Assembly (NCBI GenBank): GCA_009773355.1
Contig: WRPG01000013.1
Span: 1-64,000 of the forward strand
DNA: 64,000 nucleotides
DNA from: Limisphaerales bacterium
GTDB lineage: Bacteria; Verrucomicrobiota; Verrucomicrobiia; Limisphaerales; SXTU01
Direction of reading: 5' to 3'
In this document: in pieces, positions 14,236 through 50,965 of the stretch
Layout of the letters: the number at the start of each line of letters is the position of its first letter
Position numbering within the stretch: position 1 is the stretch's first letter
The notes under the pieces: generated by a model
The model's input: only the letters and a program-made list of their open reading frames with translations
Told to the model about the DNA's origin: nothing
Database searches by the model: none
Translations under genes and position numbers: made by a program

Positions 14236-15138
14236 ATGCGCGCACAGGAAATACTTGAGAAACTGAACTCAGGAGGAGCAAGCAAGCCTTTCGATCAGCA
14301 TTTTCCTGCCCAATGCTCGGTGCGAGGAATCGGTGAGCTCCGTGATCGCCTCGAGAGGTTGCAGGGAGTCCCGGGGTTTTCAAACTTTGAAACTCAACTC
14401 AGCGAGTCGATTATTTTCAAGACAGCATCGACCTCGATCGACATTCCTCCTACCGAGTGGCATGAGCTCACTCAAACGATTTCAATATACGCGCAGAGGC
14501 TGCGTGGTCTGCACGCTTACATCACAGAGCAAGTTTTGACTCAACAGGACACGGACGCAATCTCGGTAAAACTCCCAAGCAGCTCAGACTTGCGGTCTGT
14601 CATAAGGGCGCAGGAGCGTTTGGCAACCGCACTTGAGCAAGTTTTACTGGTTAAGGAAGTGGGGGGAGAAGTGAAGCTCAAGTCGTGGGAACCAGGATCG
14701 CTTTGGCTCCAAATCGCAGTTGGAGGTTCCGCAGTCGTTTCGCTGGTAGGAGCACTCGCTTGGGCAAGTGCTGTTATCTACAAGAAGATTCAAGAAGGCA
14801 GACTACATTCCCAATATGTAAAGTCCCTAGAATTAAGAAATGACTTCCTGGAATCACTAGTTGAAGCGGAGCGACGAATGCTCGCCCTGCTTGTCGAAGG
14901 GGAGGCAAAGAACATCGCAGCAGAGCACCTCAAAGGTGAGGTCAGTCCCGAAACATTGGAGCGGGTCAAGTTTTCACTCAGGGAGTTCTCAGCGATGATT
15001 GAAGAGGGGGCTGAAATTCATCCAGCACTACAAGCCCCCGAGAGCGTGAAAAACCTCTTCCCGAACTTCAAAGACCTCATGGGAATTGAGTCCCGAACCA
15101 AACTTATCGAGGACGAGAAGAAGGATACGTCCAATTGA
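14236..15138 (+). CDS. Orphan protein with one membrane segment, AT-richer than neighbours
   Basis: A 300-residue protein I do not recognise. Residues ~155-178 form one hydrophobic segment (LQIAVGGSAVVSLVGALAWA). The N-terminal ~150 residues are mixed alpha/beta with many Thr/Ser; after the membrane segment comes a long helical, probably coiled-coil stretch (YVKSLELRNDFLESLVEAERR) and a charged tail ending DEKKDTSN. No signal peptide is seen. Codon use and base composition are clearly less GC-rich than mutS before and the epimerase after, which suggests acquisition. Its stop overlaps the likely TTG start of the epimerase gene. A role in membrane-linked signalling or defence is only a guess. 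Confidence 0.75.
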   Translation: MRAQEILEKLNSGGASKPFDQHFPAQCSVRGIGELRDRLERLQGVPGFSNFETQLSESIIFKTASTSIDIPPTEWHELTQTISIYAQRLRGLHAYITEQVLTQQDTDAISVKLPSSSDLRSVIRAQERLATALEQVLLVKEVGGEVKLKSWEPGSLWLQIAVGGSAVVSLVGALAWASAVIYKKIQEGRLHSQYVKSLELRNDFLESLVEAERRMLALLVEGEAKNIAAEHLKGEVSPETLERVKFSLREFSAMIEEGAEIHPALQAPESVKNLFPNFKDLMGIESRTKLIEDEKKDTSN

Positions 15139-16049
15139 CTGGGGAATACTTACTGGAGCTTAAAGACTCCACCGGCGCACTCGCCGTCATCGCGCCGGAA
15201 CTCGGTGGCTGGCTGCTGCGTTACGCGCGGCCCACGGCGAAGCACGGGCTGGTGGACGCGCTGCATTTCAGTCAGGCGATCGTGGACCGCTACCCGAAGG
15301 AGATGTGGGCGGGGAATCCGCTGCTGTTCCCGATGGTCAGCTTCAACCATCTGCCGGGCCGCGAACATCACTACGCGTGGGGTGGGCGCGAGTTTGCGCT
15401 GGGGCAGCACGGCTTCGCGCGGCGGTCGGCGTGGCGCGTGGTGGCGCGCGGCGAGTCGGCGCTGACGATGGAGCTGACGGACAGCGAGGCGACGCGGGCG
15501 GTGTATCCGTTCGCGTTCGCGCATCGCGTGACCTACCGGCTGGACGGCGGGCGGCTGCACTTCGAGCAGACGGTGGAGAACCGCGGCGCAGAGCCGATGC
15601 CGTTCAGCACGGGGATTCATCCCTACTTCCAAGTGCCGCTCACGCCGCGCGGCGAGCGGGGAAAGTGCTTCGTGAAAATCCCCGCGTGCCAGCACATCGC
15701 GGCGGACGCGCGTTACGAGTGCTTCACACCGACGGCGAAGCCGGCGACCGAACTCAGCGTTGCCGAGGACGTGGCGCACACGCTGTTCTTCGGCGAGTTC
15801 TCACGACGCGAACTCACCCTCGTGGACCCGGCAAGCGAACTCGAAATCGTTCTCAACTGGGAAGGCGCGCCGCCGCATCGCTACTGCGCCATCTGGTCGC
15901 GCACGACGGACGCGCCGTTCTACTGCCTCGAACCGTGGACGGCGCTGCCGAACTCCTTCACGCGTGCCCAGCCCGGCGAGGTCATCGTGCTCGCACCGGG
16001 GGAAACCTTCCGCGCCGCTATGTGGATGGAGCTGCGCGCGGCGAGCTGA
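15135..16049 (+). CDS. Aldose 1-epimerase family protein
   Basis: A 304-residue GalM-superfamily protein that would interconvert anomers of a hexose or hexose phosphate. Landmarks: GWLLRYARP, GNPLLFPMVSF, GQHGFARRSAW with the first conserved His/Arg, FSTGIHPYFQVPL with the catalytic-type His, and YCLEPWTALPNSF near the end with the catalytic Glu. The substrate-specific loop pattern resembles the D-hexose-6-phosphate mutarotase-like branch. Translation appears to begin at a TTG (15135) overlapping the previous stop, with AAGAAGG about 10 nt upstream; no in-frame ATG precedes the conserved core. Confidence in family is high, in substrate low. Confidence 0.86.
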   Translation: MTGEYLLELKDSTGALAVIAPELGGWLLRYARPTAKHGLVDALHFSQAIVDRYPKEMWAGNPLLFPMVSFNHLPGREHHYAWGGREFALGQHGFARRSAWRVVARGESALTMELTDSEATRAVYPFAFAHRVTYRLDGGRLHFEQTVENRGAEPMPFSTGIHPYFQVPLTPRGERGKCFVKIPACQHIAADARYECFTPTAKPATELSVAEDVAHTLFFGEFSRRELTLVDPASELEIVLNWEGAPPHRYCAIWSRTTDAPFYCLEPWTALPNSFTRAQPGEVIVLAPGETFRAAMWMELRAAS

Positions 16050-48033: not shown

Positions 48034-49143
48034 TCAGCTCATCCGCATCGGCATCAGCACGTAGTGGAACGGTGTGTTGACCTTCACCGAGCCGGGACTC
48101 AGCTCGTCCGAAAGCTCAAGGAAGATCTCGTCCGTCTCCACCACCTTGAGCGGGTCCATGAGGTAGCCGGGGTTGAACGCGATGCTGATGTCCTTGCCCT
48201 TGTAGTTGATCGCAATGGATTCGCGCGCCTCCCCAACGTCCGCCGTGTTCGCGGTGATGGTCAGGTTGTTCTTGGTGAAGGCCAGCTTCACCGAGTTGGA
48301 CTTGTCGTTGGTCATCAGCTCCGCGCGCCGCAGCGCCCCGAGGAACTCCTCGCGCATCAGCGAAATCCGTTCCTTGGCCTCCTTGGGAATGACCTGCTGG
48401 TAGTTCGGGTAGTTGCCCTCGACGAGCTTGGAGATGAGCAGCACCGAGAACGCGGACTCGTCCTTGAGCCGGAAGGAAACCTGGTTGTCGGTGAAGCGGA
48501 TCTCCACGTCCCCCTTGGTCTGGAGCAGCCGGTTCAACTCGTTCACCGCCTTCGTCGGCACGATGATGTCGCCGCTCGCGGTCGAGCCGGCGGGCAAATC
48601 CTCCTCCGTCAGCGCGAGCCGCCGCCCGTCCGTCGCCACCATCACCAGCTTCTCCGGTGTGAACTTCATGAAAACCCCGTTCAGCACGTAGCGCGATTCG
48701 TCCGTCGAGATCGCGATGGCCGTCTTCTTAAGCATGGCCCGCAGCTTGTCCTGCGGCAGCGTCACCGCGCCGGTCTCCTTGAACTTGGGCAGCGGCGGGA
48801 ACTCCTCCGCGCTCAGCCCGTGCATCTTGTAAAACGACGCCCCCGCGCTCAGCTTCGTCACGTTCTTGTCGTCCGTGTCCAGCTCCACCTCGCCCACGGG
48901 CAGTTCGCGCACGATGCTGAAGAACCGCTTCACCGGGATGGTCGTCGCGCCGGGGTCGCTGATCTGCGCCTCCACGCCGCAGGCCACCGTCACGTCGAGG
49001 TCAGTGGCGGTCAGGTAGAGCCGGTTGTCCTCAGCCCGGACATGGACGTTCGAGAGGATGGGCAGCGTCGTGCGGGTGCTGACGACGTTCTGCACGGCCT
49101 GCAGGCCGGCGATGAGCTGGTCCTTCGCGATGTTGAGCTTCAT
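48034..49143 (-). CDS. dnaN: DNA polymerase III sliding clamp subunit beta
   Basis: A 369-residue beta clamp that encircles DNA and tethers the replicative polymerase. Three clamp domains are evident: MKLNIAKDQLIAGLQAVQNVVSTRT, VTLPQDKLRAMLKKTAIAIS and FNPGYLMDPLKVVETDEI, ending PFHYVLMPMRMS as usual. It is not beside dnaA, recF or gyrB in this window; its upstream gap contains a consensus DnaA box, which suggests control by DnaA or a place near an origin. Confidence 0.98.
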   Translation of the reverse strand: MKLNIAKDQLIAGLQAVQNVVSTRTTLPILSNVHVRAEDNRLYLTATDLDVTVACGVEAQISDPGATTIPVKRFFSIVRELPVGEVELDTDDKNVTKLSAGASFYKMHGLSAEEFPPLPKFKETGAVTLPQDKLRAMLKKTAIAISTDESRYVLNGVFMKFTPEKLVMVATDGRRLALTEEDLPAGSTASGDIIVPTKAVNELNRLLQTKGDVEIRFTDNQVSFRLKDESAFSVLLISKLVEGNYPNYQQVIPKEAKERISLMREEFLGALRRAELMTNDKSNSVKLAFTKNNLTITANTADVGEARESIAINYKGKDISIAFNPGYLMDPLKVVETDEIFLELSDELSPGSVKVNTPFHYVLMPMRMS

Positions 49144-49192
49144 GGCTTACTAAAGACTGAGTGATGGAAAAGTCACCCGTAGTATTAAGGGG

Positions 49193-49201
49193 TGTGGATA
49201 A
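49193..49201. promoter_or_regulatory. Consensus DnaA box upstream of dnaN
   Basis: TGTGGATAA is the exact complement of the DnaA-box consensus TTATCCACA, 50 bp upstream of the dnaN start. The rest of 49144-49379 holds two weaker TTGTTCAC copies (49304 and 49324) but no AT-rich unwinding region, and no gene is seen there. Confidence 0.6.
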
Positions 49202-49379
49202 GGAAAACAACCGGGGGTGTCAAGGTAACATCAAGGAGTTGCGTTGCCTTCCGGCTGCCCTACAACCCCTCGCGCTCGCCGGGCAACCTTGGGTAACCCC
49301 GGCTTGTTCACACTGTTGGCGGGTTGTTCACCGCCTGCTGGCCGACAATTGGCAGGGAAACTGGCGGACGTGCGAGGCT

Positions 49380-49472
49380 GTTTAACGACCCAAGCTCAGC
49401 GACCCGGCCCACGAGGGCGTTCGATTGCAACCGCGACGCGATGGCCGGGTTCGCTGCAGCGCATGGTTAGGC
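49380..49472 (-). other. attC: attC recombination site
   Basis: A 93-bp imperfect palindrome on the minus strand from GCCTAAC (RYYYAAC) to GTTAAAC (GTTRRRY). The inner arms GCTGCAGCG / CGCTGAGC and AACCCGGCC / GGCCGGGT pair with single unpaired bases, as in the folded bottom strand recognised by IntI. Confidence 0.8.
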
Positions 49473-49844
49473 CGCACGGTCTCTCTCACTGAAACCTCCA
49501 CTTCAGAGGACTCAACTGCGGGTTCTTACTGTTGAGCGTCGCAAGGTCGGTGGCGATGCGCTGCCTCTCTGTCTCGGAGGCAACGCCAGAAACGGTGACG
49601 TGCGTGACTCCTGAACCTGGCTCGACGCGAACCTGCTGCGATGGAAGTCCCAAGTGACCGGGCAGTGCCTTGCGGTAGGCGTCAGCCTGCTGGATGTCGC
49701 GCGTCTGGATCGCGCCCACGCCTGAACCGATGCCGCGCACTGTGTCTCGGTAGCTCTCGCAGCCAACCAAGACGAAGGATGCGAGAGCGACGGCCAGAAG
49801 TTTTGTTGCGGCGTTCATGTGGTGCGATGCGTAGTGCGGCCTAA
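49386..49844 (-). mobile_element. Single integron-type gene cassette
   Basis: Read on the minus strand, the unit begins with TTAGGC (after a G at 49845) only 26 bp before the start codon. It contains one ORF and ends, 13 bp after the stop, in an attC site (49472-49380) whose GCCTAAC box is the exact complement of the GTTAGGC at the cassette's own start. That correspondence is what cassette circularisation requires. No integrase gene is in the window, so this is a lone (orphan) cassette, possibly inserted at a secondary GTT site. Confidence 0.75.
49486..49818 (-). CDS. Cassette-encoded small lipoprotein (BON-like)
   Basis: A 110-residue lipoprotein: signal and lipobox VLVGC (C20), then a ~70-residue region with VRVEPGSGVTHVTVSGVASE followed by TERQRIATDLATLN. 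This strand-helix pattern resembles a BON domain, which binds membranes or polysaccharide, though the match is weak. It is the single gene of the attC-ended cassette. It has almost no own leader, so expression may depend on an external promoter. Confidence 0.8.
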   Translation of the reverse strand: MNAATKLLAVALASFVLVGCESYRDTVRGIGSGVGAIQTRDIQQADAYRKALPGHLGLPSQQVRVEPGSGVTHVTVSGVASETERQRIATDLATLNSKNPQLSPLKWRFQ

Positions 49845-49845
49845 C

Positions 49846-50134
49846 ATAATGATTGAGCGACTGGATTGTCGTTAATCAGGGTCATCGGCGTGGAGGCTGA
49901 ATTTCTGGCAACGCCTTGTCCAGCAGGTTCCTTCTGCAATTCGCCGGTTCATTATTGAATCGGGGAAAGCAACCGGGACTGCCCCGCCCAAACCGCCAGA
50001 AAGTTCATCCCCAATCCCAGGCTGAAGCTGCGGGAGCAAATGGGTGAGGTCATGTGGTTCAAGCACCTCTCGCATCGCACGGTGGTTGACGAGGACAGCG
50101 CAGAGCGGCTGGCAGCCCGCGCTCCGGGGAGCAG
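49846..50134. other. Non-coding stretch beyond the cassette
   Basis: About 290 bp with no convincing gene. It ends with a segment (around 50085-50140, containing GCGCAGAGCGGCTGGCAGCC) that looks like one arm of another repeat. No attI site or integrase fragment was recognised. Confidence 0.4.
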
Positions 50135-50839
50135 TCAGTCCGCCGCCGGCTCCACCTTGGCGGGGCGCGGGCCGAAGAGGGCGGTGCCGATGCGCACGAG
50201 GGTCGCGCCTTCCTCGACGGCGACCTCGAAGTCCCCGCTCATGCCCATGCTGAGTTGCGGCAGCGGCGCGCCGAGCAGTTGCTCGCACTCCGCCTTCAGC
50301 TCGCGCAGCCGGCGGAAGACGGGGCGCGCCCGCTCGGGCGCGGGCGTGTAGGGCGCGATGGTCATCAGGCCGTGGATTTCCAGGCGCGGGAGCCGGCTCA
50401 ACGCCGGGAAGTCCGCGAGCAGCGCGGCGGGCCGGTAGCCGAACTTGCTGGCCTCGCCGGCGACGTTGACTTCGAGGAGCATGGGCATGGTCTTCGCGGC
50501 CTTCTCGCACTGGCGGTTCAGCTCCTGCGCCAGCGCAAGGCTGTCCACGCTCTGGATCAGCTCGAAGAGCGCCACGGCATCGCGGCATTTGTTGGACTGG
50601 AGGTGGCCGATCATCTGCCAGCGGGCGCGGCCGGGGCAGAGCGGGATTTTCGCCTTCGCCTCCTGCACGCGGTTCTCGCCGAAGCAGGTCAGGCCGGCGT
50701 CCAGCGCGGCGCGGACGGCTTCGGGCGGCTGGTTCTTGCTCACCGCCATGAGCGTGACGGACGCGGGGTCGCGGCCCGCGCGGGCGCAGGCGGCGGCGAT
50801 GCGGTCGCGCAGGGCGGTGAGGTTGGCGGCGATGTCCAC
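50135..50839 (-). CDS. yggS: Pyridoxal-phosphate homeostasis protein (YggS/PLPBP)
   Basis: A 234-residue PLP-binding protein with an alanine-racemase-like barrel. PLP Lys is in LMAVSKNQPPEAV; other markers are FGENRVQEAKAK, WQMIGHLQSNK, MLLEVNVAGEASKFG, GLMTIAPYTP and LSMGMSGDFEVAVEEGATLVRIG. It buffers cellular PLP and affects amino-acid pools. The GTG at 50839 gives the best N-terminus; a TTG five codons earlier is possible. Confidence 0.95.
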   Translation of the reverse strand: MDIAANLTALRDRIAAACARAGRDPASVTLMAVSKNQPPEAVRAALDAGLTCFGENRVQEAKAKIPLCPGRARWQMIGHLQSNKCRDAVALFELIQSVDSLALAQELNRQCEKAAKTMPMLLEVNVAGEASKFGYRPAALLADFPALSRLPRLEIHGLMTIAPYTPAPERARPVFRRLRELKAECEQLLGAPLPQLSMGMSGDFEVAVEEGATLVRIGTALFGPRPAKVEPAAD

Positions 50840-50965
50840 GGGGCAGCGTAGCAATAAAGAGAGCGAGCGAAGCGCGCCAGCTCGTCCGCCGCAGCCTTGG
50901 CGCAGGCGGAAGGCCGGATGAAGGGTCGGCCGCCAGCACCCGCACGGGCTAACCCCTCACCCCGG

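Follow-up and report, generated by a model that had tools for sequence, protein, structure and literature searches.

Gene cassettes that carry an attC site and have no integrase gene nearby have been classified by the number of their attC sites, where the default threshold for a CALIN is at least two attC without intI (PMC9024848) and a SALIN is a single attC without an integron integrase (PMC12690207). Loss of intI is among the proposed origins of such integrase-less cassettes (PMC8618304), and a functional IntI can mobilise CALINs in trans (PMC12444791). The closest published precedent for the locus described here is the sedentary ilvD integrons of Xanthomonas, in which the intI of an ancestral chromosomal integron was inactivated by deletion or frameshift and the cassettes were kept, in a lineage-specific manner (PMC12444791).

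The locus lies in a 64,000-nucleotide stretch of a Limisphaerales bacterium (contig WRPG01000013.1, referred to as the window). Like SALIN and CALIN elements, it has an attC and a cassette with no integrase gene nearby (PMC9024848, PMC12690207), but its single attC comes with three further features that the class definitions omit: an attI, a Pc-like promoter and a 5' stub of intI. It is very probably what remains of a chromosomal integron; between dnaN and yggS lie attI, a Pc-like element, a single cassette and the stub of intI. This history would resemble that of the Xanthomonas integrons, from which the genus of the window differs in belonging to the Verrucomicrobiota (Limisphaerales-type order), in having paralogous platforms (at dnaN, parA, recG and on contigs C17 and C50), in carrying about 1–2 cassettes per platform, and in the one intact intI found elsewhere in the window genome.

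The gene order is dnaN, attC, cassette, attI, intI stub and yggS, with the following features (positions of the window):

48034–49143, minus strand: dnaN (DNA polymerase III beta clamp), the flank at the array end
49380–49472, minus strand: attC, 93 bp, from the covariance model (94.8 bits) and a rule-based scan, with R'' at 49466–49472, L'' at about 49451–49460, L' at about 49394–49402 and R' at 49380–49386
49386–49844, minus strand: gene cassette of 459 bp between the G^TT point at attI and the R' box, whose G it includes
49486–49818, minus strand: cassette ORF, predicted lipoprotein of 110 aa (MNAATKLLAVALASFVLVGC), lipobox LVGC
49845–49960, minus strand: attI copy of the same sequence class as the attI on contig C17, by homology to it
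49894–49922, minus strand: candidate Pc, with -35 TGGACA (49922–49917), a 17-bp spacer and -10 CAGCCT (49899–49894)
49961–50081, plus strand: intI 5' stub of about 40 codons (...FIPNPRLKLREQMGEVMWFKHLSHRT), by homology to the C17 intI
50135–50854, minus strand: YggS-type PLP-binding protein (Ala_racemase_N), the flank on the intI side

The cassette and its attC site

The interval 49380–49844, which consists of the cassette and its R' box, is a complete integron cassette ending in an attC. On the minus strand, the R'' box GCCTAAC (49472–49466) and the R' box GTTAAAC (49386–49380) fit the consensus forms RYYYAAC and GTTRRRY. The cassette begins at G^TTAGGC (49845–49839), where GTTAGGC is the exact complement of R'', and a single ORF precedes the attC. 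Folding paired the inner arms and left two extrahelical bases (plus strand T49450 and C49457). An earlier note, made from the letters alone, had proposed a lone cassette with a full attC on these same grounds (the two boxes, paired inner arms with extrahelical bases, exact complementarity to the cassette start), with a small lipoprotein as cargo, and it was borne out almost to the base. R' pairs with R'' at 5/7 positions, which is expected because the R' tail of the last attC of an array is chromosomal.

The covariance check that had been proposed was run with our own model (R1, not that of IntegronFinder), trained on 10 attC sites from other loci with the window site left out. The window attC was matched over its full length with the attC structure present (94.8 bits, E 5.8e-23), and was the top match both in the window and genome-wide. 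R1 also detected an attC from a Klebsiella plasmid, the aadA2 site of its class 1 integron (E 1.1e-8), and is therefore more than a detector of a genus-specific repeat. Its members are mostly close kin of the window attC, so that kinship, in addition to structure, contributes to the high score. Covarying pairs, with compensatory changes between two attC families, were seen in the alignment. The Rfam search of the window returned no match.

That the site is a chance palindrome, or some other repeat resembling an attC, has a negligible probability. The context is GC-rich and the single-strand folding energy, taken alone, is unremarkable (z -1.9), which would suit such a reading. The E-value of the covariance match speaks against it, as does the rule-based scan, which picked out this site alone in the window and gave no hit when the 64 kb were shuffled 10 times; sites 87–94% identical to the window attC also stand in arrays beside intI in sister species.

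The cassette encodes a 110-aa protein with a lipoprotein signal, and a function at the envelope is likely. Its C-terminal domain is a helix-strand-strand-helix-strand (alpha-beta-beta-alpha-beta) unit, confident in the AlphaFold prediction. Fold matches were weak and included the BON proteins OsmY and BonA (E 0.03–0.05), so a BON-like cargo is only a lead from the predicted model. The protein gave nothing over the cut-off against Pfam and NCBIfam and no relative in viral contigs. Among the 293 genomes of the order a single homologue was found (49% identity), directly after a tRNA gene, and no attC was found around it.

The attI copy, the intI stub and the integron on C17

The genome of the window (G000; 6.16 Mb in 162 contigs, a draft, 95% complete) was searched for intI and further cassettes, as the earlier note had suggested, which found intI on C17 and more attC sites on C17, C50 and C158. 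The one integron integrase over the TIGR02249 cut-off (455 bits) is full length, and residues 57–364 of its 365-aa frame align with the solved IntI4 structure 2a3v (E 1.9e-88). Other TIGR02249 matches in this genome were rejected as intI, being partial matches to more distant recombinases (26–45% identity). The C17 gene belongs to an intact integron with IntI, attI and one cassette (G000:C17:13889-15344, L027), which has in common with the window its attI class (89%), a divergently oriented intI, its attC class and a single cassette. It differs in its full-length IntI, in a flanking transaldolase-type gene and in its sole cassette (about 15011–15339), which has no evident ORF and a 126-bp attC.

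C50 (68298–69139; L029 6299–7140) carries a degenerate attI, one cassette (its ORF codes for about 220 aa) next to an msrP-like gene, a degenerate attC and no intI. A further lone attC lies at G000:C158:28041-28139 (L115; 45.5 bits), with a degenerate R' box.

Window positions 49839–50081 are 89.3% identical to C17 14777–15020, which span its attI and the start of its intI. The recombination point lies between 49845 and 49844, and the last 44 bp of the window attI (its core) are almost identical to the C17 attI. By homology, the attI copy stands between the intI remnant and the first cassette. The stub diverges from the cassette as in normal integrons, and its match to the 365-aa C17 frame goes no further than residue 69. 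Compared with C17 it has lost one base near 49998, which shifts its frame, and its homology ends after ...FKHLSHRT, near 50082. No intI homology was found elsewhere in the window; the rest of the gene is absent and the locus is not a complete integron. Among the genomes searched, the block 49845–50081 was seen only at integron platforms or their remnants.

Lone cassettes are usually explained by off-target insertion, here by a remote IntI placing one cassette in a secondary (attG-like) chromosomal site. The presence of one cassette only, with an intact IntI on another contig, would agree with this. However, the insertion point sits in a full copy of attI that is followed by the 5' stub of intI, neither of which off-target insertion produces, and in a congener (G161) an array occupies the same position. 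Since attI and about 40 intI codons of C17 are matched at 89.3% by the 5' flank, intI was very probably lost in place, and off-target insertion was rejected as highly improbable. The suggestion that the cassette lies far from an integrase holds in part: the intact IntI is elsewhere, on C17, but the cassette is not randomly stranded, as it sits at an attI with an intI stub.

A plausible Pc was seen within the attI copies. Hexamers resembling TGGACA and TAGCCT, 17 bp apart on the array strand, are present in 7/8 copies with little variation in their distance from the recombination point, and are 90.5% identical between copies, versus 44.5% for the spacer. In Vibrio cholerae, transcription from Pc has been mapped to start 65 bp before the attI point (PMC3948777). 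A scan for E. coli-type promoters found nothing. The window has CAGCCT as -10 where most other attI copies read TAGCCT or TAACCT, and this T-to-C change may have weakened or killed its Pc.

The preferred reading, decay of an integron in place, would run as follows. A full integron would formerly have stood between dnaN and yggS, and most of its intI would have been deleted there, as the homology suggests. The array may have shrunk or turned over until a single cassette was left. Placed directly behind attI, this cassette would be transcribed, now or once, from the Pc-like promoter and would give a small envelope lipoprotein. Judged by their sequences, attC and attI appear well enough preserved that the C17 IntI might still act on them in trans, whether by excising the cassette or by inserting others.

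The dnaN locus in congeners and further attI platforms

The window attC lies 237 bp upstream of the dnaN start. In G161, of the same genus, a decayed attC lies 233 bp from the dnaN start, with at least two further cassettes beyond it before the contig ends. No attC was found upstream of dnaN in six other congeners, and the search turned up no strain in which dnaN adjoins an intact intI. The dnaN-adjacent cassettes of G161 and the window encode different proteins, so that position is the only ground for calling the two loci orthologous. It is likely that an integron was already at dnaN in the common ancestor of the two species; two independent arrivals are possible.

Pairing of the G161 dnaN array with the intI of that genome (C262) was unsupported, as this intI adjoins mnmG. 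An intI beside mnmG was observed in G161 and G186 (L118, L104), and no attC or intI was found beside the window mnmG (33406 onward). Upstream of the window dnaN, the block 49155–49270 is conserved in the genus, and in this genome a perfect DnaA-box-like TGTGGATAA lies within it, near 49194.

Further platforms were found by searching the genus with the window attI, and attI sites without intI recur, on C50 of the window genome, beside parA in two species (G145 and G105) and beside recG in G175. At G145:C1 (L211 3962-4606), attI and a single cassette with a strong attC (101 bits) adjoin parA, and no intI was detected in this genome (85% complete). G105:C283 (L212 1350-2559) has attI and two attC sites at the orthologous parA locus; the parA flanks of the two species align at 85–87% and the cassette genes differ. 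G175:C181 has attI and a short intI stub, and at G105:C194 a 43-bp attI core is all that remains. The length of the intI stub varies by locus, being shorter in G175 and nil on C50.

A near-identical pair of intI 5' stubs lies on two contigs of G105, each truncated at roughly the same codon as the window stub. At the contig ends of C146 and C175 (L215 / L216), both stubs are followed by the same 180-bp sequence. The pair would reflect recent duplication or gene conversion among intI copies, to judge from the sequences.

These twin stubs bear on a reading in which the intI 5' stub and attI, perhaps with the cassette, were moved or copied as one piece from an integron of the C17 type, so that no full integron ever stood at dnaN. 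They indicate that such blocks can duplicate with a cut near that of the window, and the 89.3% match of attI and stub to C17 fits as well. This value is, however, close to the 88.5% between the intact copies of C17 and G105, that is, to the divergence between species, so that the window and C17 platforms separated long ago and any copying would be old. The differing stub lengths among loci and the dnaN array of G161, which points to a former platform there, also count against copying, and we consider it improbable.

The intI-less attI sites may also still be live, serving as additional docking and expression sites at which the cell's one IntI acts in trans, with one or two cassettes apiece. 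This would add to decay in place and not replace it. The near-identity of the attI core to that of C17, the Pc-like hexamers retained in most copies, the different cassettes at the orthologous parA platforms of G145 and G105, and the published mobilisation of CALINs in trans (PMC12444791) are all consistent with it. On the other hand, G145 is without a detectable intI (at 85% completeness), parallel loss of intI after cassette turnover fits the same data, and the attI copies on C50 and at G105:C194 are eroding. We therefore hold it to be tentative and rather unlikely, and hold with similar reserve the broader idea of a distributed integron, in which several intI-less platforms with attI and Pc beside housekeeping genes would all exchange cassettes through one IntI. 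A literature search for duplicate or orphan attI returned unrelated matches only.

Classification and significance

The earlier note had labelled the locus a CALIN, which does not fit, as the window has one attC and the threshold is two (PMC9024848). SALIN is the applicable class (PMC12690207), given one attC and no intact integrase at the locus, with a definition that is silent on attI and intI stubs. The view that such cassettes are rarely noted in this phylum was not upheld either. Verrucomicrobiota were already among the listed integron phyla (PMC8618304), and in the order intI over the family cut-off was found in 91/293 genomes and attC of the window class in 183/293. Of the latter, 99 were without intI at E <= 1e-60, a figure that draft assemblies inflate.

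In support of intI loss as an origin of integrase-less cassettes (PMC8618304), the locus at dnaN offers direct sequence evidence, having kept attI together with the 5' end of intI. For an uncultured group of Verrucomicrobiota it also yields an attI class and, with it, a candidate Pc. Counts of attC and intI alone overlook such attI-bearing remnants, and the default CALIN threshold of two would drop single-attC loci of this kind (PMC9024848). The recurring intI-less attI platforms are the part worth following up: integrons might work as distributed systems, provided that these platforms still take up cassettes in trans.
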